64,000 nt of DNA from Candidatus Peribacteraceae bacterium (GTDB taxonomy: Bacteria > Patescibacteriota > Gracilibacteria > Peribacterales > Peribacteraceae), in NCBI GenBank assembly GCA_028703445.1, contig JAQVMW010000004.1, forward strand, positions 52,127 to 116,126, in the 5' to 3' direction. The notes beneath the pieces are model-generated. The model was not told where the DNA came from. It did not search any database and saw nothing but the letters and a program-made list of their open reading frames with translations. Each line of letters starts with the position of its first letter. The first letter of the stretch is position 1. Positions 4,083 through 60,667 of this stretch are shown piece by piece. Made by a program: the position numbers and the translations under genes.

Positions 4083-4245
4083 GGAGTACAAACCTCCATC
4101 CCCCCGCCCGTACCGATCCTCGGTACGGATCGGGCGGGCCAACCCCTTCCTCCACAAAAGGAAGGGGAGCACATCAAACGGTGAAACAACTACAAACACA
4201 AACATTCCCCCTCTTTGTGGAGAGGGGGCGAGGGGGAGAGGAAAA
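4081..4245 (-). repeat. Interspersed repeat R1, copy A, carrying a nested hairpin
   Basis: Read on the minus strand this matches 23093-23225 on the plus strand. Shared blocks are CTCTCCCCCT, GGGGGAATGTTT, TGTTTGTAGTTGTT, CTCCCCTTCCTT and GGGGGATGGAGGTT. Copy A has two extra segments relative to copy B: about 15 nt (around 4169-4183) and the CCCGCCCG hairpin at 4103-4138. It fills the intergenic space between the secreted protein and the GerMN gene. Confidence 0.8.
4103..4138. repeat. CCCGCCCG-TACCGA hairpin element, copy 1
   Basis: Stem CCCGCCCG/CGGGCGGG encloses an inner stem TACCGA/TCGGTA. The same architecture with different loop bases is found at 5298-5332. Here it sits inside repeat R1, where the other R1 copy has no such insert. 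Confidence 0.75.
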
Positions 4246-23092: not shown

Positions 23093-23225
23093 CCCCTCTC
23101 CTTTTCGTGCACTTCACCTCTCCCCCTGACCCCCTCTCCATAGAGAGGGGGAATGTTTATGTTTGTAGTTGTTCTCCCCTTCCTTCTCGGGAGGAAGTGG
23201 CCGGGGGATGGAGGTTAAAATCAAA
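23093..23225 (+). repeat. Interspersed repeat R1, copy B
   Basis: Contains CTCTCCCCCT, a CCCCCTCTCC/AGAGGGGG hairpin, AATGTTTATGTTTGTAGTTG, CTCCCCTTCCTT and GGGGGATGGAGGTT in the same order as the minus strand of 4081-4245. It fills the gap between convergent tmk and rlmN; nothing else is visible in that 206-nt gap. Confidence 0.8.
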
Positions 23226-28001: not shown

Positions 28002-28056
28002 TGTGGATAGGCTTTGTGAAATCTGTTACATGAAAGAGACATATCAAACCATGTCC

Positions 28057-28086
28057 CGTAGCGGAAGATCGCGATCTTCCGCTACG
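28057..28086. repeat. 30-bp perfect palindrome upstream of Cys-rich gene 1
   Basis: CGTAGCGGAAGATCG followed by its exact reverse complement, ending 2 nt before the ATG at 28089. The identical 30 bp occurs at 56349-56378 before the paralogous gene. In RNA it would fold into a very stable hairpin covering the place where a ribosome-binding site should be. Confidence 0.95.
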
Positions 28087-28088
28087 AT

Positions 28089-29756
28089 ATGCCGGTGCAG
28101 CAGACCTGCCGCCACTGCCAATCGCTCTTCGAGGTCACGAATGACGATCTCGTGTTTTACGACCGCGTTTCACCGGTGTTTGCCGGGAAGAAAGAGCTGA
28201 TCCCGCCGCCGACCCTCTGCCCGGATTGCCGTCAGCAGCGCAGACTGACTTACCGCAATGAACTTCGCTTGTACCGTCGCAAATGTAGTAAGTGCAATGA
28301 GGAGATCGTGGCGATGTTTTCCGATACTGCGCCATACAAAGTGTATTGCCATCATTGCTGGTGGGATACATCGTTCGATGCGCGGAATTTCGGGAAGGAG
28401 TGGGATAAAAAGCGCAGCTTTTCCGAACAGTTTGCTGCGCTCATTAAACACACACCTCTCCCGCACCTGGTGATTGGTGATGCAGAGAACAGCGACTTCA
28501 CAAACTATTCATGGCAGAACAGGAACTGTTACATCCTCTCGAGTTCTGACTATAACGAGGACTGTTATTATTCCACGTACCTCTTCCGTTCACGTAGTTG
28601 TGTTGATTGCACATTCGTTGATGACTCAGAATTGCTCTATCAATGCGTTGATTCAAAAAAGTGCTATGATTCTCAGTTTCTGCAGCAGTGCCAGAACTGT
28701 TCGGATTGCATGTATTGCTATGACTGTCACTCCTGTCAAAATTGTTCCGGGTGTGTCGGGCAGCGGAATAAGAAGTATTGCCTTTTCAATGAACAACTCA
28801 CAGAAGAAGAATATGAAGAAAGAAAAAATGCACTCTCTCCTGCCATACTCGAAAGAAACTTTGAGAAGTTGAAACTCCAATTTCCCCATCGTTTTGCGGA
28901 ACTTGAACAGTGTGAACACTCGACAGGCAATCATCTGCAATCATGCAAAAATGCAGAACGTTGTTTCGATCTCGTGGAGGCCATAGATTGTCGATATTGT
29001 GCCCTCGGATTCAAGCTGAAGGATTGCATGGACTGCACAGGCACCACTGGGTGTGAATTGCTTTACCAGTCCGTTGCCAGTCCCGAGAATTACTCCATGC
29101 AATTCTCCTCGGTCATTTGGCCGAAATCCTCTTTTTTACAGTACTGCCTCTTCTCCCGCGCCTCACAACGTTGCTTTGGTTGTGTTTCACTCCACAAAAA
29201 CGAGTACTGCATTCTCAACAAGCAGTACACCAAAGAAGAATATGAGAAGCTTGTTCCCGAGATTATCGCCAAGATGCGTGCAGAAGGGGAGTGGGGCGAG
29301 TTCTTCCCCGTCTCCATGAGTCCCTTTGTCTACAACGAAACCGTGGCACAGGAGTACTTCCCGATGACAAAAGAGGAAGTTCTCAGGCGAGGATGGCAGT
29401 GGCGCGATCAGAAAGACGAAATGCCAAAGGTTTCGAAGATAATCGCGGCAGAGAAACTTCCGGACGATATCGCAAATGTTCCGGATAACATTTTGATCTG
29501 GGCGATTGAGTGCGAAGCGACGAAGCGACCCTTCAAGATCGTCAAACAGGAATTGGACTTCTACCGGAAAATGAAGCTCCCGATCCCCCACTTCCACCCC
29601 GATGAGCGGCACAAAAGGAGGATGATGCTTAGAAATCCGCGCAAGCTCTGGAGCCGCAATTGTGCCAAGTGCCAAAAGCCGATAGCCACAAGCTACCCGC
29701 CCGAACGACCAGAAATCGTCTTTTGCGAAGCTTGCTACCTCGCCACAGTCTATTGA
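28089..29756 (+). CDS. Cys-rich multi-zinc-ribbon protein, paralog 1
   Basis: 555 residues with about 40 cysteines. The N-terminal zinc ribbon CRHC...CPDC contains the IPPPTLCPDCRQQRRLTYRN signature. A second cluster follows (CSKC...CHHCWWD), then a long central stretch of CxxC/CxxxxxC repeats (about residues 155-245) and a conserved region ending in a C-terminal ribbon CAKC...FCEACYL. The last 170 residues are close to identical with the paralog at 56390 (about 45-50% by eye elsewhere in the N-terminal and C-terminal parts). No catalytic motif is evident; zinc binding and nucleic-acid or protein contact are inferences. The ATG lies 2 nt after a 30-bp palindrome. I recall such proteins in CPR genomes under uninformative names. 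Confidence 0.85.
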   Translation: MPVQQTCRHCQSLFEVTNDDLVFYDRVSPVFAGKKELIPPPTLCPDCRQQRRLTYRNELRLYRRKCSKCNEEIVAMFSDTAPYKVYCHHCWWDTSFDARNFGKEWDKKRSFSEQFAALIKHTPLPHLVIGDAENSDFTNYSWQNRNCYILSSSDYNEDCYYSTYLFRSRSCVDCTFVDDSELLYQCVDSKKCYDSQFLQQCQNCSDCMYCYDCHSCQNCSGCVGQRNKKYCLFNEQLTEEEYEERKNALSPAILERNFEKLKLQFPHRFAELEQCEHSTGNHLQSCKNAERCFDLVEAIDCRYCALGFKLKDCMDCTGTTGCELLYQSVASPENYSMQFSSVIWPKSSFLQYCLFSRASQRCFGCVSLHKNEYCILNKQYTKEEYEKLVPEIIAKMRAEGEWGEFFPVSMSPFVYNETVAQEYFPMTKEEVLRRGWQWRDQKDEMPKVSKIIAAEKLPDDIANVPDNILIWAIECEATKRPFKIVKQELDFYRKMKLPIPHFHPDERHKRRMMLRNPRKLWSRNCAKCQKPIATSYPPERPEIVFCEACYLATVY

Positions 29757-29804
29757 TCTTGCATGCCGGTGTACTCAAGGTCGTTCTGGTCGGGCGGGTG
29801 CGCC

Positions 29805-29869
29805 CAAGCGGCCGGAGATCGTGTACGGTGAAAATTGCTATCTTAAAGAAGTGTACTGAGCAATTTTCA
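29805..29869 (+). repeat. Orphan copy 1 of the Cys-rich gene's 3' end, with a 12-bp inverted repeat
   Basis: Reads RPEIVYGENCYLKEVY then stop, compared with RPEIVFCEACYLATVY-stop at the true gene end 93 nt earlier; the first Cys of the CxxC is Gly. GGTGAAAATTGC (29827-29838) and GCAATTTTCACC (29859-29870) form a perfect 12-bp inverted repeat bracketing the tail. Confidence 0.75.
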
Positions 29870-29870
29870 C

Positions 29871-29963
29871 CCTGCCTGCCCGTCCGTAGCCCGAAGGGCG
29901 AAGGCGGGAGCGAGCAGAGCGAGTCGAATGGGCGAGGAATGTTATCTGCAAGAGGTGTATTAG
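29871..29963 (+). repeat. GC-rich palindromic repeat plus orphan copy 2 of the Cys-rich gene's 3' end
   Basis: CCTGCCTGCCCG...GAAGGCGGG (related to 17508-17553) leads into GCGAGCAGAGCGAGTCGAAT and then GGGCGAGGAATGTTATCTGC, which reads MGEECYLQEVY-stop. The same GAATGGG-YGAGGA-TGTTAT block follows the second Cys-rich gene at 58113-58164. The remaining gap to purD holds a CCTGAGC...GTCGAAGG unit (29970-29991). Confidence 0.7.
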
Positions 29964-36026: not shown

Positions 36027-37019
36027 ATGCAAACCCTCACCGGAGTCCTTCGGCAGCCCGCCCTCCATGTTCGCAGACACCTCTGCTCTTCCACGATCGG
36101 CTGGATCGCGCTCACCGTGATGATCCTTTCGGGATCCACGACAGCCGCATTCGGAAAGAAACTCACGGAGTTCTTCTCTCCACTCTCGATGCTCTTCTTG
36201 AGCGAGATCATGCTGCTCCTCTTCGCGATCCTGACCTTTGGATTTTTTCCGATCGTCAAGAAAATTCGCCACGTTCATCCATCTTTCATTCTTCCGCTCC
36301 TCACCGCCGGCGTGCTCAACGGAGTCGTGGCACCCATCTTCTGGTTCACGGGTCTCGAACGGACGTTCGCCGTCAATTCCCAGCTCTTCGGTAACTCCGA
36401 AACGCTCTTCCTCATTCTCTTCGGCATCCTGCTAATACACGCTTATCCCAGACGTACACAGTGGATAGGCGGCACTATCATTCTGACGGGGCTGCTCACG
36501 GTTGCCCTCAAAGGATTCACTACGGGAATCAGTATCGCGAGCGGCGATGCACTCATCATCCTTGCCGGCGGTATCTACGGCCTCGGAGGAGCGCTCATCA
36601 GCAAGTACCTGCGCCATGTGGAACCGCAGATCATCATCGTCGCGCGGTCCTGCTGCGCCATTGCTTTCTTCTTTCTGCTCTCTCCGTTCATCACGCACCC
36701 GTTCGCATCTGAGCTCAAAACGTTTCCCTTGGAATTTCTGGGCGTCCTGGTCGGTTACGGACTCATTTCACGTTTCCTGCTTCTCTTCAGTTACTACGAA
36801 TCCATCGAACGCCTGCCGCTTGCCACCGTCTCTTTGCTCGGAACGCTCGCTGTGGGAACGGGACTTCTCTTCTCGCACTGGTACCTCGACGAAAGCATTT
36901 TCTGGTACCACGGAGTCGGAGCGGCTCTCATCATCCTGGGCGCAGTGGTCGTGCAGTGGGGAAGCCTGAAGAAACTGGAAAAATACGTGGTACACGCTCT
37001 GAAGGCACACCACCATTAG
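36027..37019 (+). CDS. EamA/DMT-superfamily transporter
   Basis: 330 residues with about ten hydrophobic helices arranged as two five-helix repeats (EamA domains, about 25-165 and 175-310). Conserved-type segments are GVVAPIFWFTGLERTFAVNSQLFGN and the second-half SYYESIERLPLATVSLLGTLAVGTGLLF. DMT transporters export or import small metabolites such as amino acids or nucleotide-related compounds; the substrate is not predictable. The stop codon is contained in the left end of a repeat element (37017-37139). Confidence 0.88.
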   Translation: MQTLTGVLRQPALHVRRHLCSSTIGWIALTVMILSGSTTAAFGKKLTEFFSPLSMLFLSEIMLLLFAILTFGFFPIVKKIRHVHPSFILPLLTAGVLNGVVAPIFWFTGLERTFAVNSQLFGNSETLFLILFGILLIHAYPRRTQWIGGTIILTGLLTVALKGFTTGISIASGDALIILAGGIYGLGGALISKYLRHVEPQIIIVARSCCAIAFFFLLSPFITHPFASELKTFPLEFLGVLVGYGLISRFLLLFSYYESIERLPLATVSLLGTLAVGTGLLFSHWYLDESIFWYHGVGAALIILGAVVVQWGSLKKLEKYVVHALKAHHH

Positions 37020-37139
37020 GGATTGGGGATTGCCCGCCCGGATGACCATCCGGTCGGACGGGGAATATTGGGGGTGAGGGTTCAAGGAATAATCCATTCA
37101 AGGCTCCCTAATACACTAATCCCTAATCCCCAATCCCTA
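37017..37139. repeat. Small element bounded by inverted repeats, between convergent genes
   Basis: The left end TAGGGATTGGGGATTG (37017-37032) matches the complement of the right end (CCCCAATCCCTA at 37128-37139). The interior contains CCCGCCCGGATG...GGACGGGGAATATT. The left half in reverse complement matches 60340-60398 inside pbpC. It has no coding capacity. It includes the stop codons of both flanking convergent genes. Confidence 0.7.
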
Positions 37140-50352: not shown

Positions 50353-53300
50353 ATGTCTCTCTCCGACTCCCCTTCGCGCTCCGCACTTCGCGGGGCAGGT
50401 CGATTCTCCTCCGTGACCCAAACCATCGGCCGGCGCCCGCTGGCCCTGGCGACCGTACTGGTCGTCTTCATCACGCTCATCGCGCTCTTCGCCACGGGAA
50501 CCGTGCGATTTCCAAGCCGCCAGACCACGATGGATTTCTCGCTGCGCCAGAAGATTTCGGCCGCTTCGACCCTGCAGTTCAGCTTTCCCGCACTCATGGA
50601 CCACAAGAGCGTAGAAGAGAGTATGACGCTTCCGGAGAGCATTACGGGAACGTTTGGCTGGACGGATGAGACGCTCACATTCAGTCCGGCTTCTCCCCTG
50701 CCCGCAGGAAAGACTCTCGTTTTTCACCTGAGCCGCGACGCCAAGAAATCCGACGGAGTGAGTCTCAATCAGGATCTCGTCTTCACCTTCATCGTCGCCG
50801 GTCCGCCTCTGATCGCAGGCCGCATTCCCGAGGTGGGCGCGCAGCATGTCGCAGAAACCTCCAAGATCACCATCATCTTCGACCGCCCCATGATCCCCCT
50901 CACGCAGGTGCAGGGCGATGCGGCACAGGCGCGACTGGCAAACTGGCCCGTGACGATCTCGCCCGACACGGCGGGACGCTGGCGGTGGCTCTCGACGGTG
51001 GCCGTGGAATACATACCGGAAAAGGGGCTGCTCCCAAGCACGCGCTACACCGTTTCGATCCCCAAAGGGATCAAGACCATTTCGGGTGACAAAACGGAGG
51101 AGGATTTTTCGTGGACATTCGAAACCGCACGCCCGCAGGTGGTGGCCACAAATCCTGAGAAATTCTTCATGCTCGCCGGACCCACGACCGTGCTCACGCT
51201 TACCTTTAATCAGGAAATGAAGATAGACAGCGCCAAGGAACTCATCTCTCTTTCACGAATGGAAGTAATCGGTGCAAAAAAGGAAGAAATTGCCATCCGC
51301 TCTGTATCCTTTGGAACGGTCGAAGTGGATAAGCGCGACGTCACGGACCGGAAAACTCTCATCATCACCCCTGCGAAACCTCTTGCGTTCTCCTCGCTAT
51401 ACACACTCACCGTCGCACCGGGACTGACGGGGGCAAAAGGCACACTCGGAAGCGGCACAGGATTTAGCTTGCCCTTCGCGACCGTGGGGACGCTGAAGGT
51501 TGAGCAATCCAACTTCGAGTACGGCCGTGTCTTCTTCAAATTCTCTAATCCTCTCTCAGAAGATTCCCTGAAGAATCAGATCATGATCGCGCCTGCCATC
51601 GAGAAATGGGAGGAAACGGAATGGCAGCTCTCATCGTGGGTGGACAATCGCGAACTCGCGGCTTATCCGCCCCTTGCTCCCTCCACGCAGTACACCATCA
51701 CGCTGGGCACCGGGCTCAAAGACACCTTCGGGCAGTCACTCAAAGAACCTGCCACGTTCTCGTTCAAGACGCCGCCGTTAGACCCACAGCTCCAACTCGA
51801 ATCCAAAGGTGAATTCGGCATCTTCGAACGGGAGAAGCCCCCCGTGTACCGACTGAAATCCGTGAATATCACAAAGGTGGAAGCCGAGCTCTCTTCGGTG
51901 AGCATCTTGGACTTCCTTACGTTCCGCGACACGCATGAGACATGGAACGCACTGCCGACGAATCTCACCCCCCTGCAGACATGGACCTACGTTCCGGAAG
52001 TGAAAAGGGATACGTGGGATATCCATGCGTTCGATTTGATTGAGGAAGCGAAACAGTCCCTCCCATCCGGCCTGTACGCGCTGCGGGTTCGCGCTCCCAA
52101 CGAAAAAGGCTATGACGGCAAAGAATTGCAGTACACCCAAATTTTCGCCCTCACTTCAACCACCCTCACGCTCAAATACTCGGGGAACCGCGCGCTCGTG
52201 TGGGCAACGGATCTGAAGACGGGAGAGTCTGTCGCCGGTGCCAACGTTGCATTCCACTCACTCGATGGGGAAATAGTCGTGACAGGCAAGACGGATAAGC
52301 AGGGCTTCTTCGAAACACCAATCGACATGAAGCGTTTCGCCACGGCCATGAACGAATGGGAGCCGGAATTCTGGGTGACTGCGGAAAAAGGAGGCGATCT
52401 CTCCTTCGTTTCCAGCAAATGGAATGATGGCATCCGGCCGGACATGTTCGGTCTCTACACCGACTTCTGGAATCCCTCGGACCGCGCCGAGCGCATTCAC
52501 TCGACCCTCTACACGGATCGTCCGCTCTACCGCGCGGGGGATACCGTGCACTTCAAAGGAATCCTGCGAACGCGCAACGTTGACGGCGTGCTCGCGATCC
52601 CCGAGAAGAGCCGCGCCGTGTCCGTCACGGTCAGAGACAGCAATGGGAACGAAATCTTCAGCAAGTCACTGACGCTCTCTTCCTACGGCAGTTTCGCCGG
52701 CGATCTCCCCATTGACGCCGAAGCTCCCCTCGGCACCTATCAGATCACCGCAGGATTCCAGGAGGGTACCTACGGAGGCGATGCGTACGGTTCCTTCGAA
52801 GTCCTCGCCTATCGCAAACCGGAGTACCGCGTGGACCTGACCACGGAACGGGAAGACTATTTCCAGGATGACACGGTGCAGGCGACCATCGCCGGTGCCT
52901 ACTACTTCGGCGCACCCATGGGCGGGGCATCTGTCGCGTGGAGAGCCCAAACCACGGATTACTTCTTCAACAAGGTGCAGGATGACTGGTACTCCTTCGG
53001 TCTCGAAGACGCGTTTTGCTGGCAAAACTGCGAACGCGAAACAAAGCTTCTCGCGGAGGGCGAGGGAACGCTGGATGCCTCCGGCAGACTGGCCATCTCC
53101 GTTCCCGCAACAATCGCGGACAAGCCCGTGAGCCAGATCCTCACCGTCGAGGCCGACGTGACGGATCCAAACAATCAGGTCGTCAGTAACCGCGTTTCCG
53201 TTCCCGTGCACAAGGCCGATGCCTACGTGGGAGTCAAGACGGAGGACTATGTTGTGACGCCCGGAACCGATGCCGCGATCGGCGTGATCACGGTCAAACC

Positions 53301-56300
53301 GGATGGCTCCGCGTTGCCGAACACGAACGTTACCGTGAACCTCTATAGCCGCAAGTGGAACACCATCAAGAAGAAGGGTGTCGATGGCCAGTACTACTAC
53401 GACAACACGCCGGAGGATACCTTCGTGCGCGCCACGAAAGTCACCACCGACGAAAAAGGGAAGGCGCGCACAACGGTGCGTCCCGATCAGGGCGGCGAAT
53501 TCCGCGTGGTTGCCGTGGTCGAGGACGAGCAGGGACGGCAGGCGAAGGCCGCCACCAGCCTCTACGCGTGGTCCAGTACCTACGTGAACTGGCCGCACGA
53601 GAATAATAACCGCATCGATGTGGTACCCGACAAAGCGGAATACCGCATCGGCGACACGGCGACGCTGCTCATCAAATCCCCCTTCCAAGGCGCGAACGTG
53701 AAGGCTCTCGTCACCGTGGAACGCGAGCAGGTGATCCACCGGGAAGTCATCACGATCGAATCTACAGCACAGAAGATCTCCGTTCCCATCACCGAGGACC
53801 TGCTGCCCACCGCCTATGTCTCCGTGATCGTGCTCAAACCCCGCATCGGCGAGACCTTCAACGAAAACGGCCTCGACACGGGTGCTCCCGCGTTCCGCAT
53901 CGGCTACGCCAAGCTCCCCATCGAGACGAGTTCCAAGCGCCTCACGGTGAACGTCATGCCGGACAAGGAGAAGTATCTCCCCGGCGAAAAGGTCACGGTG
54001 AAGCTCAAGGCATCCGATTGGCAGGGCAAGCCCGTGCGTGCCGAACTCTCGCTCGGGGTCGTTGATATGAGCGTTCTCGCACTGACCGGCTTCGAGCTGC
54101 CCGACCTCGTGCAGCGCTTCTACGGCGAACGGCCCGTGGGCGTATTGACCGCAGAGATGCTCACCTTCCTCATCGACCGCTACAAGCCCGGATCCAAGGG
54201 CGGAGGCGGAGCGGATCTGGAAGCGAAGAAACGCGGCAACTTCAAAGACACGGCCTACTGGAACCCCACCATCCTCACGAATGAGAAGGGTGAAGCGGAA
54301 GCAGAATTCACGCTGCCGGATAACCTCACAACCTGGCACCTGCTCGCGGTCGGGCAGACGATCGCTTCCACTTTCGGCGCAGCGGAGGATACCGTGATCG
54401 AGACGAAGCACGTGATCGTGCGTCCCGTGCGGCCGCGCTTTGCGGTGGTCGGAGACCGCGTGACGCTGGGCGCGATCGTCCATAACTTCCTCGACAGCTC
54501 CGCCACGTTTGATGTTTCACTCACCGGAAGCGGCTTCACTCTAAGCGGGCAACGAAGTAAACAGGTGACGATCGGTGCCGGTGAACAGACGAAGGTGGAA
54601 TTCCCCGTGACGATTGCCCGGACAGATAAGGCAACCTTCACGTTCCTCGCGAGGAATGAATCAGCACGCGACGAAGTGGAGGAATCGATTCCCATCCTGA
54701 CCTATGGGACGCCGCAGAGCGCGGCGACCACAGGCATTACGGAAGATGTAATCACGGAGAAGGTGCTTGTGCCCTCCGAGAAGGATGCGCGCGACGGATC
54801 GCTGTCGGTGACCGTCTCTCCGACCCTCGCCACCTACCTGCCCGGCGGACTCCAGTACCTCGCGAGTTACCCCTACGGCTGCGCGGAGCAGACCCTCTCG
54901 AGCGTTCTCCCGAATGTCGTCCTCCTGCGCCTGCAGGGCTTCGATGCCTTTCACATCGTCGACAAAAAGAAGCTCGATGACATGGTCACGAAAGGCCTCA
55001 CCCGCCTCTACACCTTCCAGCGCGGCGACGGAGGATTCGGCTACTGGCAGGAGAGTAATCGCAGTTACCCCGCCCTGAGCGCCTATGCCCTCCAGGCACT
55101 CTCGCTCATCCGCGACAGCGGATTCGCCGTGGATGACGGCGTCCTCGCCCGTACGCGCCAGTACCTCGATGCCGCTCTGCGCAGATCGGATCCGAATGCC
55201 GAGCTGGATGTCGCCACCCGCGCGCAGATCCTGTTTATCCTCGCGGAAACGGGAGACGTGGACGTAAGCCTTCTCAACAACCTCGATGAGCAGCGCGCCA
55301 AGCTTCCGCTCTTCGCCAAAGCACAATTGGCCATGGCCTTCGATCACACCAAGTCCAAAGGCAAAGCGCGCGACATCGTGACGGAAATCCTTCGGTCCGC
55401 GAAAGTGGACGGCCGCGGCACGCACTTCGAAGAAGAGGACATCGGCACGTTCGGCTCCCTCATGCACACCAACGACCGCACGTCCGCGCTCGTACTGCAG
55501 GCTTTGCTTCGCATCGATCCCAAGAATCCCCTGATCCCCAATGCCGTGCGCTACCTGCTGACCATCCGCAAGGACGGCCACTGGGATACGACGCAGTCCA
55601 CCGTCTCGGTGCTCCTCACCTTCATTGAGTATCTAGAACAGACAAAAGAGCTCGATGCCGCCTTTACGGCGGGCGTGGATGTGAACGGGACGCAGATCCT
55701 CGACTGGAAGGTCACGAAGGCAAACGTGCTCTCGCGCAAGGAGGTGAAGCTGGCATTGGACGAACTCGTCAGAGGCGAAACGACAACGCTCAAGATCGGT
55801 AAGGAAGGGACGGGCCGTCTGTACTACGACGCCGTGCTCTCGTACTTCTACACCGCAGATACCCTGCCGCCCGCCGAAGAGGGCATCAGTGTGCTCCGGT
55901 CGACCGAGCCGCTCCCCGATCAGAAAAAAACGCTGACCGTCGGCAATACCTACCGCGTGACCCTCACGATCACCGTACCCGAGGACCGTCACTTCGTGGC
56001 CGTCGAGAGCCCCTTCCCCGCGGGTTTCGAACCGATCGACGTCAACCTGCAAACCGCGCAGAAGACGCTGCTGTCGGACGACACGACGCGCCTGTGGGAT
56101 GAGAACTACTGGCAGAGCGGACTGTGGCGGTTCAATCACCGCGAACTCCGCGATGACATGTTCTTCGCCTTCGCCGATGAGCTGCCGGCCGGCGTCTACC
56201 AGTTGACCTATCTCGTCCGCGCGACGACCCCGGGTACCTTCCACGAACGCCCGGCCCATGTGTTCGAAATGTACTTCCCCGAGGTGTTCGGCCAGACGAT

Positions 56301-56328
56301 GGGTAAGGTGGTGACGATTCAGGAATAG
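50353..56328 (+). CDS. Alpha-2-macroglobulin family protein with intact thioester motif
   Basis: 1991 residues. One N-terminal transmembrane anchor (about 28-47) is followed by two Ig-like Big_5 type domains (about 60-260), macroglobulin domains including YTDRPLYRAGDTVHFKGILR (about 715), the A2M core YWNPTILTNEKGEAEAEFTLPDNLTTWHLLAVG (about 1303), the thioester PYGCAEQ with C1510 and Q1513, an alpha-alpha toroid thioester domain, and a C-terminal receptor-like domain. Bacterial A2Ms trap attacking proteases in the cell envelope and are commonly paired with PBP1C. Here pbpC is the next gene but one, with the Cys-rich cassette between. The thioester is complete, unlike in the MagD-type homologs. 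Confidence 0.95.
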   Translation: MSLSDSPSRSALRGAGRFSSVTQTIGRRPLALATVLVVFITLIALFATGTVRFPSRQTTMDFSLRQKISAASTLQFSFPALMDHKSVEESMTLPESITGTFGWTDETLTFSPASPLPAGKTLVFHLSRDAKKSDGVSLNQDLVFTFIVAGPPLIAGRIPEVGAQHVAETSKITIIFDRPMIPLTQVQGDAAQARLANWPVTISPDTAGRWRWLSTVAVEYIPEKGLLPSTRYTVSIPKGIKTISGDKTEEDFSWTFETARPQVVATNPEKFFMLAGPTTVLTLTFNQEMKIDSAKELISLSRMEVIGAKKEEIAIRSVSFGTVEVDKRDVTDRKTLIITPAKPLAFSSLYTLTVAPGLTGAKGTLGSGTGFSLPFATVGTLKVEQSNFEYGRVFFKFSNPLSEDSLKNQIMIAPAIEKWEETEWQLSSWVDNRELAAYPPLAPSTQYTITLGTGLKDTFGQSLKEPATFSFKTPPLDPQLQLESKGEFGIFEREKPPVYRLKSVNITKVEAELSSVSILDFLTFRDTHETWNALPTNLTPLQTWTYVPEVKRDTWDIHAFDLIEEAKQSLPSGLYALRVRAPNEKGYDGKELQYTQIFALTSTTLTLKYSGNRALVWATDLKTGESVAGANVAFHSLDGEIVVTGKTDKQGFFETPIDMKRFATAMNEWEPEFWVTAEKGGDLSFVSSKWNDGIRPDMFGLYTDFWNPSDRAERIHSTLYTDRPLYRAGDTVHFKGILRTRNVDGVLAIPEKSRAVSVTVRDSNGNEIFSKSLTLSSYGSFAGDLPIDAEAPLGTYQITAGFQEGTYGGDAYGSFEVLAYRKPEYRVDLTTEREDYFQDDTVQATIAGAYYFGAPMGGASVAWRAQTTDYFFNKVQDDWYSFGLEDAFCWQNCERETKLLAEGEGTLDASGRLAISVPATIADKPVSQILTVEADVTDPNNQVVSNRVSVPVHKADAYVGVKTEDYVVTPGTDAAIGVITVKPDGSALPNTNVTVNLYSRKWNTIKKKGVDGQYYYDNTPEDTFVRATKVTTDEKGKARTTVRPDQGGEFRVVAVVEDEQGRQAKAATSLYAWSSTYVNWPHENNNRIDVVPDKAEYRIGDTATLLIKSPFQGANVKALVTVEREQVIHREVITIESTAQKISVPITEDLLPTAYVSVIVLKPRIGETFNENGLDTGAPAFRIGYAKLPIETSSKRLTVNVMPDKEKYLPGEKVTVKLKASDWQGKPVRAELSLGVVDMSVLALTGFELPDLVQRFYGERPVGVLTAEMLTFLIDRYKPGSKGGGGADLEAKKRGNFKDTAYWNPTILTNEKGEAEAEFTLPDNLTTWHLLAVGQTIASTFGAAEDTVIETKHVIVRPVRPRFAVVGDRVTLGAIVHNFLDSSATFDVSLTGSGFTLSGQRSKQVTIGAGEQTKVEFPVTIARTDKATFTFLARNESARDEVEESIPILTYGTPQSAATTGITEDVITEKVLVPSEKDARDGSLSVTVSPTLATYLPGGLQYLASYPYGCAEQTLSSVLPNVVLLRLQGFDAFHIVDKKKLDDMVTKGLTRLYTFQRGDGGFGYWQESNRSYPALSAYALQALSLIRDSGFAVDDGVLARTRQYLDAALRRSDPNAELDVATRAQILFILAETGDVDVSLLNNLDEQRAKLPLFAKAQLAMAFDHTKSKGKARDIVTEILRSAKVDGRGTHFEEEDIGTFGSLMHTNDRTSALVLQALLRIDPKNPLIPNAVRYLLTIRKDGHWDTTQSTVSVLLTFIEYLEQTKELDAAFTAGVDVNGTQILDWKVTKANVLSRKEVKLALDELVRGETTTLKIGKEGTGRLYYDAVLSYFYTADTLPPAEEGISVLRSTEPLPDQKKTLTVGNTYRVTLTITVPEDRHFVAVESPFPAGFEPIDVNLQTAQKTLLSDDTTRLWDENYWQSGLWRFNHRELRDDMFFAFADELPAGVYQLTYLVRATTPGTFHERPAHVFEMYFPEVFGQTMGKVVTIQE

Positions 56329-56348
56329 CGGAAAATGAGAGCAACATC

Positions 56349-56378
56349 CGTAGCGGAAGATCGCGATCTTCCGCTACG
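56349..56378. repeat. 30-bp perfect palindrome upstream of Cys-rich gene 2
   Basis: Identical over all 30 bp to 28057-28086 (CGTAGCGGAAGATCG plus its complement). It ends 11 nt before the ATG at 56390. Confidence 0.95.
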
Positions 56379-56389
56379 GTATTCCTGTG

Positions 56390-58069
56390 ATGCACACCTG
56401 CCGCAACCTGTGGTGCAAGCAACCCTTCGAGATCACCGACGATGACCTTTCCTTCTACGAAAAAATCTCACCGGTTTTCAATGGCAAGAGAGAATTGATC
56501 CCGCCGCCTCTGCTCTGCCCGGAGTGCCGGTTGCAGCGGAGACAGGCGTTCCGTAATGAGCATTGTCTCTCCAAGCGCACCTGCGACCTCTGCGGGAAAC
56601 TGACCATTTCCTCTTTTGCCTCCGAGAGTCCTTTCCCGGTGTACTGCAGTGATTGCTGGTGGTCGGACCGCTGGGATCCCGCGGATTACGGAAGGGAGTT
56701 CGACTTCACCCGTCCTTTCTTTCCCCAATTCGAAGAGCTCCAGCACAGTGTGCCACAGGCCGCCGCTCTCCAACTCAACAACGAGAACTGTGAATTTAAT
56801 CACCTCCTCGCTTTCAGCAAGAACGCCTACCTGTGCCCGGGGAGCTACTGCGTCGAAGATTGCTACTACCTGCGCAAGAGCCAGTACTGCCGTAACTGCG
56901 CGAACGGAAACATTCTCAATCGATGCGAGCTGGTCGCAGAGAGCCAAAATTGCGACGGCTGCGTCTCTTCGCACCACCTCATCAATTGCCGTAACTGCTC
57001 TTTCAGTAGTTACCTAAATGACTCTTCTGGCCTCAGGGATTGCTTCATGTGCAGCGGGCTCATGAACAAACAGTACTGCTTCAAGAATGAGAAGTTCACG
57101 CGCGCCAAGTACGAGGAGACACTCCGGCAGTACGCCGGAAAATCCCCGGAAACACTGTTCTCGGAATTTCAGGAATTCAATCGCACTACACCTAAGCGAG
57201 CCCAAATTCAGCTCCACTGCGAGAATTCCACGGGCGACTACCTCACGAATTGCCACGCCGCCCGTCACTGCTCCGACTGCATCAACATCGAGGATTCCTC
57301 GTACATTGTCGAGTGCGAAGGAGTCAGGGATTCCATGGATTTGACCTCGCACGACAAGGATATCGAGCTCTGCTACGAGATGTCCTCCGGCGGCGAGAAG
57401 AGCTATCTGACGCGTTTCTGTTACTGCACCATCGCCTCCCCCCGCTCCGCGTACATGAGTTCGTGTTTCTACCAATCCGACAGCTTCGGGTGCGACGGAC
57501 TGCACACACGGGGTCAGTACTGCATCCTCAACAAGCAATACTCCAAAGAAGCATACGAAAAACTCGTACCCAAGATCATCGCACACATGAGAGGGACGAA
57601 AGAATGGGGTGAATTCTTCCCGATTGAGAGAAGCCCTTACGCCTACAATGAATCCGTCGCCCAAGACTACTTCCCGCTCACGAAAGAGGGGACGGGGAAA
57701 CGGGAATGGCAATGGAAAGATCGAACGGACGAGATGCCGAAACTCTCGAAAGTGATTTCCGCTGTGAATCTGCCAGATTCGATTGAGGAGGTTCCCGACG
57801 ATATTGTGAACTGGGCAATTGAGTGCGAAGCGACCAAGAGACCCTTCAAAATCATCAAACAGGAACTGGATTTCTACCGGAAGATGAAGTTACCGATCCC
57901 GCACTTTCACCCCGATGAGCGGCACAGGAGGAGGATGGCGCTCCGGAATCCCCGTAAACTCTGGAAGAGGCCGTGCATGAAATGCAGTAAAGAAATGCAA
58001 ACAACGTACTCTCCCGATAGACCAGAGGTTGTGTATTGCGAATCTTGTTATTTGGCTTCAGTATATTGA
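56390..58069 (+). CDS. Cys-rich multi-zinc-ribbon protein, paralog 2
   Basis: 559 residues from the ATG at 56390; the track's GTG is one codon earlier. It has the same architecture as paralog 1: N-terminal ribbon CRNLWC...CPEC with IPPPLLCPECRLQRRQAFRN, a second cluster CDLC...YCSDCWWSD, a central Cys-repeat region (CRNCANGNILNRC..., CSDC), the shared block GQYCILNKQYSKEAYEKLVP, and the C-terminal ribbon CMKC...YCESCYLASVY. Central repeats differ most from paralog 1, whereas the last 170 residues are strongly conserved. It lies between A2M and pbpC, a pair that is usually adjacent. It has no membrane segment. The function is unknown; zinc binding is inferred. Confidence 0.85.
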   Translation: MHTCRNLWCKQPFEITDDDLSFYEKISPVFNGKRELIPPPLLCPECRLQRRQAFRNEHCLSKRTCDLCGKLTISSFASESPFPVYCSDCWWSDRWDPADYGREFDFTRPFFPQFEELQHSVPQAAALQLNNENCEFNHLLAFSKNAYLCPGSYCVEDCYYLRKSQYCRNCANGNILNRCELVAESQNCDGCVSSHHLINCRNCSFSSYLNDSSGLRDCFMCSGLMNKQYCFKNEKFTRAKYEETLRQYAGKSPETLFSEFQEFNRTTPKRAQIQLHCENSTGDYLTNCHAARHCSDCINIEDSSYIVECEGVRDSMDLTSHDKDIELCYEMSSGGEKSYLTRFCYCTIASPRSAYMSSCFYQSDSFGCDGLHTRGQYCILNKQYSKEAYEKLVPKIIAHMRGTKEWGEFFPIERSPYAYNESVAQDYFPLTKEGTGKREWQWKDRTDEMPKLSKVISAVNLPDSIEEVPDDIVNWAIECEATKRPFKIIKQELDFYRKMKLPIPHFHPDERHRRRMALRNPRKLWKRPCMKCSKEMQTTYSPDRPEVVYCESCYLASVY

Positions 58070-58104
58070 GATGCAAAATCCCTTCTTCTGGTGCAACAAG
58101 ATTC

Positions 58105-58164
58105 GCCCTGAGCGGAGCGAAGCGGAGAATGGGTGAGGAGTGTTATTTGAAGGGGGTGTATTAA
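58105..58164 (+). repeat. Orphan copy 3 of the Cys-rich gene's 3' end
   Basis: CCTGAGCGGAGCGAAGCGGAG leads into GAATGGGTGAGGAGTGTTAT, reading RMGEECYLKGVY-stop. It starts about 35 nt after the real stop of paralog 2. The first Cys of the CxxC is again Gly, as in both tails after paralog 1. Confidence 0.7.
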
Positions 58165-58249: not shown

Positions 58250-60667
58250 ATGATCCGTCCCCGTTCCCTCTTCTGGCTCCTCCCGCTGCTCGTGCTCGCA
58301 GTGGCAATCCTCCTGCCCCTTCCGCAACGTTTCCTCGACCGGCAACAATCCTCCATCCGCATTCTGGATCGCAACGGCGAAGAGTTGTACGAGCTCAATC
58401 GGGTCACGCGCGGCTCGCAGCAGTGGGTTCCCCTCCGTGAAATTCCGCAATCCTGCACTGCTGCGCTACTCGCCATCGAGGATCGAAGTTTCTATGCACA
58501 TCCGGGAGTGAGTCTGAAAGGAACAATCCGTGCCCTCTGGCAGAACCTTTCGACCGGACGCGTCGTGTCGGGAGGCTCCACCATCACCCAGCAGCTCGCC
58601 CGGCTTACGCTGGGCACTCAGGAACGCACCATCGTCTCGAAAGTGCTCGAAGCTCTATTGGCACTCAAGCTGGAACAATCGCTCAGCAAAGATGAGATTC
58701 TGGAGCGCTACCTCAATGCCGCCTACTTCGGGCACCGGTCCTACGGGCTTTCGGCAGCGGCCAGGACGTACTTCGGCACCTCGGTGAGCGAGCTCTCCAC
58801 CGCGCAGTGCGCCCTGCTCGCGGGCCTGCCGCAATCCCCTTCCGCGCTCGATCCATTCGTGAACAGGGATGCGGCGAAAGCGAGACAGGAACGCGTTCTC
58901 GGTGCCATGCGCGAAACCGACACCCTCTCCGATGCCGAGCTGAAACAGGCAGAACAGGAACCCCTGACGCTCACGGAAGACAGAACGTCAATTCGTGCCC
59001 CGCACTTCGTTCTGTGGCTCCTTACAGAACGGCCGGATGATTTCAGCGCTCCGACTGTCCGCACAACACTGGACCTGAATCTACAGATGGAAGTGGAGCG
59101 CATCGTTGAACGCAAACTGAAAGAGCTGGCAGACAAGAACGTCACGTCCGCCGCCGTGGTCGTGCTCGATGCTCATACCGGTGATGTACTGAGCATGGTC
59201 GGTTCGGCGGATTACTTCGACGAGGAGCACGATGGCGCGGTCAACGTCGCTTTCGCATCGAGACAGCCGGGATCAGCCCTCAAGCCCTTCACCTACGCAC
59301 TGGCACTCGCGAAGGGTGATACCGCTGCGACGACCGTGGCCGATACTTCCGTTCAATTCCTGACGCAGGAAGGCACGCCGTACGTCCCGCGCAACTACGA
59401 CTACCTCGAGCACGGCCTCGTGCGGTACCGCGAGGCACTGGCTAACTCCTACAACATCGCTGCCGTGCGCGTGTCAGAACGCGTGGGTATTCCGACGCTT
59501 CTCTCGTTCCTCCGCTCCGCGGGACTCTCGACGCTGACAAAGACCCCCGAACACTACGGCCTCGCCCTGACCCTCGGCGATGCGGAAGTGAAGTTGCTTG
59601 AGCTTTCTCAGGCCTACGGCATCTTCCCGCGCGGCGGTGAAACACTCCACGTGCGCACCATCCTTTCAGACCCGACTCAAAATGGAACGGGCATCCTCGA
59701 TCCGCGCGTCGCGTGGCTCATCACCGATATGCTCAGCGATCCGACGGCGCGGCTGGCGGAATTCGGAGAGAGCGGTCCCTTAAATTTCGGTTTCCCCGTG
59801 GCGGCCAAAACGGGCACGACGCGTAACTCCCGCGACAACTGGACTGTCGGCTTCACCCCTGACCGCATCGTGGGAGTCTGGGTGGGCAACGCCGATAACT
59901 CACCCATGAAGGATACTTCCGGAGTAACGGGGGCAGGGCCGATCTTTCATGATGTCATGTTGGCAGCGGTCAGGAATCTGCCACCCGGCGATTTCGTGCA
60001 GCCGCAGGGACTCACGAAAATAACGGTCTGCCGACTATCGGGCAAACTTCCGACGGATCTGTGTCCGCATACGATTGACGAGTGGTTCATCGCAGGAACA
60101 GAACCGACAGAACCCGACGACATCTATCAGCCTTTTCTGATTGATACTCGAAACGGCCTCTTAGCTGGAAGCGGCTGCCTGCCCCTCCGAAGCTCCGAAG
60201 GAGCGAAGGAGAGTGATCAGAAATTTGTTGAACGGAAAGGGCTCGCCGTGTTTCCAAAAGAAGTGGAACAGTGGGCGCGCGAGCAGGGGTGGCCGGTTCC
60301 TCCCTCCCAAATCTCCCCTCTCTGCAAAAAAATATCTCCAATCCCTAATATTCCCCGCCCGACCGTCCGGCCGTACGGGCGGGCAATCCCCAATCCCTCG
60401 TCATGGATAGAGATCACCCAGCCACAACCGAGCGAGAGCTACCTCTTAGATCCCCTCGTCCCGGATACACAGGAGCTCATCATCTTTACCGCCCACGCCT
60501 CAGCCGACATCCAAACTGTGGACTGGTACGTAGATGATAAGAAAGTCGGGACAGCGAAGGCGCCGGATTTCCGGTTCAAATGGCAGCCTCAATCCGGAAC
60601 ACATGTCCTGAGCGCACGCACCGACGGGAAGGAGACTCATTCTTCATTCGAAGTACTGGAACGATGA
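58250..60667 (+). CDS. pbpC: Penicillin-binding protein 1C with in-frame repeat insertion(s)
   Basis: 805 residues. There is an N-terminal anchor (about 5-25) and a GT51 glycosyltransferase (about 50-220) with EDRSFYAHPG and GGSTITQQLAR. The transpeptidase (about 290-590) has nucleophile S342 in SALK, S400-Y-N and K520-T-G. The C-terminal BiPBP_C domain lies at about 715-805. It polymerises and cross-links peptidoglycan; PBP1C is typically encoded next to A2M. Residues about 697-716 (PIPNIPRPTVRPYGRAIPNP) are encoded by a repeat also present at 37.0 kb. A further stretch near 60175-60210 (CLPLRSSEGAKES) resembles the 17.5 kb repeat. Both lie in the linker before BiPBP_C, where insertions are tolerable. 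Confidence 0.95.
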   Translation: MIRPRSLFWLLPLLVLAVAILLPLPQRFLDRQQSSIRILDRNGEELYELNRVTRGSQQWVPLREIPQSCTAALLAIEDRSFYAHPGVSLKGTIRALWQNLSTGRVVSGGSTITQQLARLTLGTQERTIVSKVLEALLALKLEQSLSKDEILERYLNAAYFGHRSYGLSAAARTYFGTSVSELSTAQCALLAGLPQSPSALDPFVNRDAAKARQERVLGAMRETDTLSDAELKQAEQEPLTLTEDRTSIRAPHFVLWLLTERPDDFSAPTVRTTLDLNLQMEVERIVERKLKELADKNVTSAAVVVLDAHTGDVLSMVGSADYFDEEHDGAVNVAFASRQPGSALKPFTYALALAKGDTAATTVADTSVQFLTQEGTPYVPRNYDYLEHGLVRYREALANSYNIAAVRVSERVGIPTLLSFLRSAGLSTLTKTPEHYGLALTLGDAEVKLLELSQAYGIFPRGGETLHVRTILSDPTQNGTGILDPRVAWLITDMLSDPTARLAEFGESGPLNFGFPVAAKTGTTRNSRDNWTVGFTPDRIVGVWVGNADNSPMKDTSGVTGAGPIFHDVMLAAVRNLPPGDFVQPQGLTKITVCRLSGKLPTDLCPHTIDEWFIAGTEPTEPDDIYQPFLIDTRNGLLAGSGCLPLRSSEGAKESDQKFVERKGLAVFPKEVEQWAREQGWPVPPSQISPLCKKISPIPNIPRPTVRPYGRAIPNPSSWIEITQPQPSESYLLDPLVPDTQELIIFTAHASADIQTVDWYVDDKKVGTAKAPDFRFKWQPQSGTHVLSARTDGKETHSSFEVLER
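60340..60398. repeat. Intergenic palindromic repeat embedded in frame in pbpC
   Basis: AATATTCCCCGCCCGACCG ... GGGCGGGCAATCCCCAATCC matches the reverse complement of 37019-37072 with differences confined mainly to the hairpin centre. It encodes about 20 residues of the linker preceding the BiPBP_C domain without breaking the frame. Confidence 0.8.

Follow-up and report, generated by a model that had tools for sequence, protein, structure and literature searches.

We analyzed a window of 64,000 nt from a 1.37-Mb Candidatus Peribacteraceae genome, in which two genes of one cysteine-rich protein family lie on the forward strand: window gene 1 (28089..29756; 555 aa, ending in ..YPPERPEIVFCEACYLATVY and a stop) and window gene 2 (56387..58069; 560 aa, ending in ..RPEVVYCESCYLASVY and a stop). 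The window sits in contig C7 of this home genome, which has 16 family matches, mostly in tandem on contigs C16 and C17. The cysteine-rich protein has no Pfam or NCBIfam match above cut-off. A structure model of a family protein has a mean pLDDT of 85, and PDB sequence and fold searches gave no convincing relative, with no match below E 1 for the model. The last CxxC motif completes a C-terminal CxxC pair, all four cysteines of which are invariant in 61 family proteins; we infer that this pair binds zinc.

Gene ends, inserts, and copies in the window

Three copies of the last 10 codons of the family, each closed by a stop, lie 3′ of the two window genes; all of them are present as a preliminary description of this DNA had stated. 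At window gene 1, the last ~19 codons come from insert 1 (29696..29799, + strand, ~104 bp). This insert is of an upstream-site type and includes a left inverted repeat within coding sequence (CCCGCCCGA, 29696-29704), a new gene end with its stop, and a right inverted repeat (TCGGGCGGG, 29790-29798). The element type recurs in a related genome (G002:C8:18524; here and below, G denotes genomes and C contigs). Downstream lies copy 1 (29809..29859, + strand), a displaced gene end reading RPEIVYGENCYLKEVY and a stop. Within it, GENCYLKEVY and the stop span 29827-29859 and are preceded in frame by RPEIVY, from 29809.

From CxxC to stop, copy 1 doubles as the coding part of insert 2 (29828..29931, + strand, ~104 bp), which is of a CENC type. 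Its first arm (GTGAAAATTGCT, 29828-29839) leads into YLKEVY and a stop, followed by a second arm (AGCAATTTTCACC, 29859-29871) and a palindromic tail ending in ..GTCGAATGG. Inserts of this type also occur at C17:25564 in the home genome and in G003, G020, G052, and G069. Copy 2 (29931..29963, + strand), GEECYLQEVY and a stop, follows as the oldest displaced end.

Window gene 2 ends in insert 3 (58038..58132, + strand, ~95 bp), of a CESC type, with a coding first arm (GCGAATCTTGTT, 58038-58049), YLASVY and a stop, a second arm (AACAAGATTCGC, 58095-58106) that is complementary to GCGAATCTTGTT at 12/12 positions, and the tail CCTGAGCGGAGCGAAGCGGAGAATGG. Copy 3 (58132..58164, + strand), GEECYLKGVY and a stop, is the displaced old end. 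In all, window gene 1 has two inserts, an upstream-site one and then a CxxC-type one, and window gene 2 has one, of the CxxC type. The copies had been described as replicas of the adjacent gene's end; instead, they resemble the family consensus end, EECYLKEVY.

Occurrence across the family and age of the copies

The copies far exceed chance: a 33-nt end pattern gave 16 matches in the 1.37-Mb home genome at ≤2 mismatches and none with a reversed control. These matches comprise 12 family gene ends, one of them from a truncated gene, and four downstream copies, the fourth of which (C17:25492-25524) has Asp (GAC) instead of Gly. The truncated gene (C17:23875-23997) has only about its last 40 codons left, in a 167-aa open frame. 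The copies given by this genome-wide search always lie downstream of this gene family, in keeping with the insertion scars proposed in the preliminary description. Solo copies as marks of lost genes are not supported: in the home genome, the search gave none that stands apart from a family gene.

Tandem ends recur across the genus at spacings of 58-135 nt. A pattern for two closely tandem ends had 27 matching sites, spread over 11 of the 74 genomes of the family (the same set as in the order-level search), and the reversed control had none. Among the tails of 184 family genes, taken from 13 related Ca. Peribacteria genomes, 40 gene ends have at least one downstream copy, for a total of 43 copies. 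Decayed copies are missed in this count because the search allows only three substitutions; four additional ones were spotted by eye. A blind test of the last ten codons, which required at least 7 to match within 300 nt downstream, was positive for 39 of 175 family genes vs. 0 of 167 other genes. The group is uncultured, and most of the genomes are fragmented assemblies.

The gene end and the copy differ in how typical they are of the family. At the variable position of CE-x-C, genes with a copy have a residue other than E in 37 of 40 cases, vs. 63 of 144 genes without a copy (p = 8e-9), and E is found at that position in 23 of the 43 copies. Since gene ends with a copy are atypical and many copies are ordinary, the gene end is the newcomer and the copy is the old end, and we therefore reject a long target-site duplication, in which the downstream copy would be the newcomer. 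C546, the residue lost in the copies, does not vary among 61 family proteins, which means that the copies cannot serve as working ends. Diversity-generating retroelements combine a reverse transcriptase with adenine-specific differences between gene end and downstream copy; by inspection, the differences between gene ends and copies here fall on all bases. Altogether, it is very probable that the downstream copies are displaced old gene ends and that short inserts supply the replacement end. The suggestion that repeated insertions at a single site left the copies as scars is thus supported by the family-wide copies and displaced ends. The alternative suggestion of a functional RNA may apply to the inverted-repeat part, but the displaced copies themselves behave like decaying leftovers. 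Chance and one shared Cys-to-Gly mutation were also considered as explanations and were rejected or limited.

Comparisons of loci with and without inserts support displacement. The neighbors of window gene 1 are purF and purD, one on each side, and the same order is found at G002:C17 (protein identity 93% for purF and 80% for purD). The family gene there ends in CEECYLKEVY, with no copy downstream and with insert 1 absent; window positions 29799-29857 align with this gene end at 79.7%. Three other pairs of filled and empty syntenic loci have similar sequence after the copy or stop (G002:C8:20405 and G001:C1:726212, 79% over 649 nt) or downstream (G002:C8:11889 and G000:C16:57531, 81% over 599 nt; G003:C30:29962 and G069:C1:67833, 83% over 237 nt). 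Several sister pairs have no conserved downstream sequence and do not test the model, because downstream sequence or synteny is not kept.

Inserts are also shared between different paralogs of one genome. A 116-bp block in G048 is identical among three paralogs, each on a contig of its own. Upstream of the block, these paralogs diverge strongly; their displaced ends are not the same, and their flanks are unrelated. Contigs C4, C12, C42, and C43 of this genome end in or beside further cassettes. All matches to the coding half in G048 are at family gene ends or at contig edges with family sequence; the tail half occurs elsewhere too. The family genes on C4, C12, and C19 have common, near-identical 3′ coding blocks of differing lengths, a sign of gene conversion between paralogs.

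On a FastTree phylogeny of 169 proteins, built with the last 40 residues left out, the distribution of the 35 genes with copies requires 32 changes, 29 of which are forced by strong branches; 32 is no fewer than under shuffled labels. In this tree, window gene 1 and its syntenic counterpart at G002:C17 are not grouped together, which suggests that gene bodies may be converted as well.

Anatomy of the inserts and the Gly codon

The inserts are ~55-135 bp long and start at the last CxxC or ~30 nt before it. Each has a replacement gene end with its stop, an inverted repeat with a coding 5′ arm, and usually a dispersed palindrome. They code for a gene end only, with no transposase or integrase gene. 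In the main (CxxC) type, the 5′ arm consists of the CxxC codons: it spans 12 nt, starting at the second base of the codon for the first Cys, and complements a stretch 3′ of the stop. Complementarity is at least 9/12 in 29 of 33 CxxC-site inserts, and in these the gene end always beats the displaced end (29 to 0). On this count, we reject the arm complementarity as a by-product of pairing with the displaced end. No clear arm pairing was found in the other four CxxC-site inserts, three of VEGC/AEGC type plus that of G004, so the full anatomy is not common to all inserts. The x codon of the arm varies (AAT, TCC, TCG, TCT, TCA, ACC), as do other positions, and the counter-arm varies along with the arm across 12 arm variants.

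After the counter-arm comes the palindrome CCTGAGC..GTCGAAKGG, found in 35 of 40 tails with copies vs. 7 of 81 plain CEEC tails. Its core, CCTGAGC..TCGAANGR, has about 30 sites in the home genome (control 0), and the stem of the genomic palindrome extends about 4 bp past the core, not 12. We infer that the palindrome of the inserts derives from this dispersed genomic repeat. The tail of insert 2 (29872-29920) has a nested palindrome, CTGCCTGCCCGTCCGTAGCCCGAAGGGCGAAGGCGGG, which is a palindrome inserted into a palindrome and is also found within tails at G002:C28 and G003:C30.

The second (upstream-site) type starts ~30 nt further 5′ and is bounded by terminal inverted repeats, as in CCCGCCCGA/TCGGGCGGG of insert 1, whereas the second arm of the CxxC type lies inside the insert, ahead of the tail. 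The displaced end that follows an upstream-site insert usually retains its Cys.

Across the 43 copies, the first residue is Gly in 31, Cys in six, Val in three, and Ala, Asp, and Tyr in one each. In most copies, the insert ends in ..GAATGG or ..GAAGGG and abuts the old GYGAR, so that the codon reads GGY. Gly in most copies is therefore a junction, made by the terminal GG of the insert next to the old GYGAR, and not a point mutation. This is the case for copies 2 and 3, in which the Gly codon joins the GG of a ...GAATGG tail to the old GYGAGG. The Met that appears to start the copies, read before GEEC in the preliminary description, is incidental because GAATGG contains ATG. Around the proposed GYGAR crossover, the third base does not always match on the two sides, and we did not see a constant target-site duplication: only GYGAR is common, with the third base often different.

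Copy 1 is another case. The insert before it is of the type that normally leaves Cys, and since RPEIVY is still present ahead of copy 1, TGT-to-GGT must have arisen separately here. The shared Cys-to-Gly replacement noted earlier for this window is thus real in that GGT or GGC stands for the family's TGY in all three copies, but it does not have one common origin or mutation. Likewise, the idea that the copies form their own family rather than random decay stands to the extent that a Gly-first class recurs; what this class has in common is mostly a junction codon and not a single mutation. The T-to-G change in copy 1 completes a perfect 13-bp inverted repeat, GGTGAAAATTGCT/AGCAATTTTCACC (29827-29871). 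From this one case, it is possible that the change was a template-guided correction of an imperfect palindrome.

Spread of the inserts and known systems

These comparisons document displacement, replacement, many scattered occurrences, and the sharing of cassettes by different paralogs within a genome. In the mechanism that we propose, a short cassette (~55-135 bp) inserts into the last CxxC, at the codon for its first Cys, or ~30 nt upstream. The cassette brings, in order, a 10-12 nt arm made of the (C)ExC codons, the rest of the C-terminus with its stop, a complementary arm, and usually a dispersed palindrome that ends in GTCGAAKGG. The C-terminal CxxC knuckle of the gene stays intact, with its codons now supplied by the cassette, and the old end is pushed downstream and unlinked from the gene, with TGY read as GGY via the last GG of the cassette plus GYGAR. 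Repeated rounds leave serial copies.

How cassettes reach new genes is less certain. The coding half was found nowhere but at the ends of family genes, which argues for recombination of paralogs at a short common sequence or for a strictly site-specific process. We lean slightly toward recombination between paralogs in some form, be it gene conversion, template switching, or a small circle that integrates at the common GYGAR. More tentatively, the inserts could be homing-like minimal elements: hairpin cassettes with a target-matching coding arm that insert only in the family's last CxxC knuckle, rebuild the end, stack serially, and are moved by a dedicated process. We identified no mobilizing enzyme or circular intermediate for the inserts.

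A transposase acting in trans is somewhat less plausible again. The cassettes would then be non-autonomous REP or MITE elements that depend on a transposase with a strong site preference, either Y1 (RAYT-like) or another. The terminal inverted repeats that bound the upstream-site type, the tail as a dispersed palindrome with about 30 home-genome copies, and the Y1 transposases that are present in most family genomes (5 matches in the home genome) are all consistent with this. However, two cassette-bearing genomes, G069 and G023 (97-99% completeness), have no Y1_Tnp match, the coding half was never seen away from family gene ends in the searched genomes, and the target-site duplication is not constant. 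We consider it unlikely, and a little more so, that the arms and tail are a selected RNA 3′ hairpin, either an mRNA stabilizer or a terminator, with the displaced copies as by-products. The arms do pair over 13 bp in an RNA fold of the insert 2 region (z about -2.3), but for the gene 2 region the fold is no better than that of shuffled sequences (z 0.06), and 144 of the 184 family genes have no copy and only chance-length repeats (mean 5.6 nt). Co-change of arm and counter-arm would fit a hairpin; it is equally expected if the arms travel together.

The copies could also be the last codons of tandem paralogs that were deleted by recombination, as the tandem arrays of the family and the truncated gene at C17:23875, with only its last ~40 codons, might suggest. 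This is largely refuted and, in our assessment, very improbable: the same junction is found at unrelated loci in many genomes, different paralogs carry identical inserts, the inverted-repeat arms track the gene end, and syntenic empty loci have no extra gene at the site. Displacement by short inserts remains our preferred reading of the copies.

In Rhs and CdiA systems, a new 3′ gene end is installed, and an orphan fragment downstream of it is what remains of the old one. The window loci resemble such orphan C-terminal modules in having the new end in place and the old one displaced downstream, but here only 10-20 codons move, and the inserts carry inverted repeats and a palindrome. The swapped Rhs/CdiA ends are variable toxin domains with immunity genes, whereas here they are equivalent, conserved codons of a CxxC knuckle. 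Some integrative elements restore the 3′ end of their target gene with their own sequence, and the old end shifts to the far side. The inserts are alike in rebuilding the gene end and displacing the old one, but have no integrase or cargo and are ~55-135 bp in all. They are MITE-like in being short and non-autonomous, with no transposase gene, but unlike MITEs they are not dispersed at many unrelated sites, the coding half being found only at family gene ends. The tail alone, a short palindrome in many copies, is REP/REPIN-like; in contrast to REP/REPIN with RAYT, the inserts have a coding inverted-repeat arm, and we saw no dependence on a Y1 transposase.

Among described elements, QMITE1 and QMITE2 of Coxiella are short inverted-repeat MITEs that give genes C-terminal codons or a stop (PMC5896051); they hit many unrelated genes and extend or overlap their ends, while the inserts hit one family at one codon and rebuild a conserved end. 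Rickettsia palindromic elements are palindromes inserted in frame in genes (PMC10969869), but they add an internal peptide to unrelated genes, with no end replacement or displaced copy. Passages of the paper on complete Peribacteria genomes describe large extracellular cysteine-rich proteins, and the passages retrieved from it by keyword describe no such inserts (PMC4736985). Our text searches of the open literature found no description of such gene-end swapping, and the inserts fully share the defining features of none of the systems compared here.

The inserts are too small for any enzyme, and these insertions persist inside a coding sequence because they bring along a spare copy of the part that they disrupt. 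The scraps of former ends make the history of gene-end turnover readable in a large, uncharacterized, tandem gene family, and provide a testable case of short DNA pieces moving between paralogs in uncultured Ca. Peribacteria.

The window has other features outside the gene ends. A perfect palindrome, CGTAGCGGAAGATCGCGATCTTCCGCTACG, lies closely 5′ of both window family genes (28056-28087 and 56348-56379) and 5′ of three further family genes (C16, C17); its copy at C17:16479 has no family gene beside it. Immediately 5′ of window gene 2 is a 1991-aa open frame (50353-56328). Two long-distance inverted repeat pairs (4185-4241 with 23117-23173, and 37018-37073 with 60343-60398) are 56-57 nt long and 86-91% complementary, and are probably dispersed repeats.
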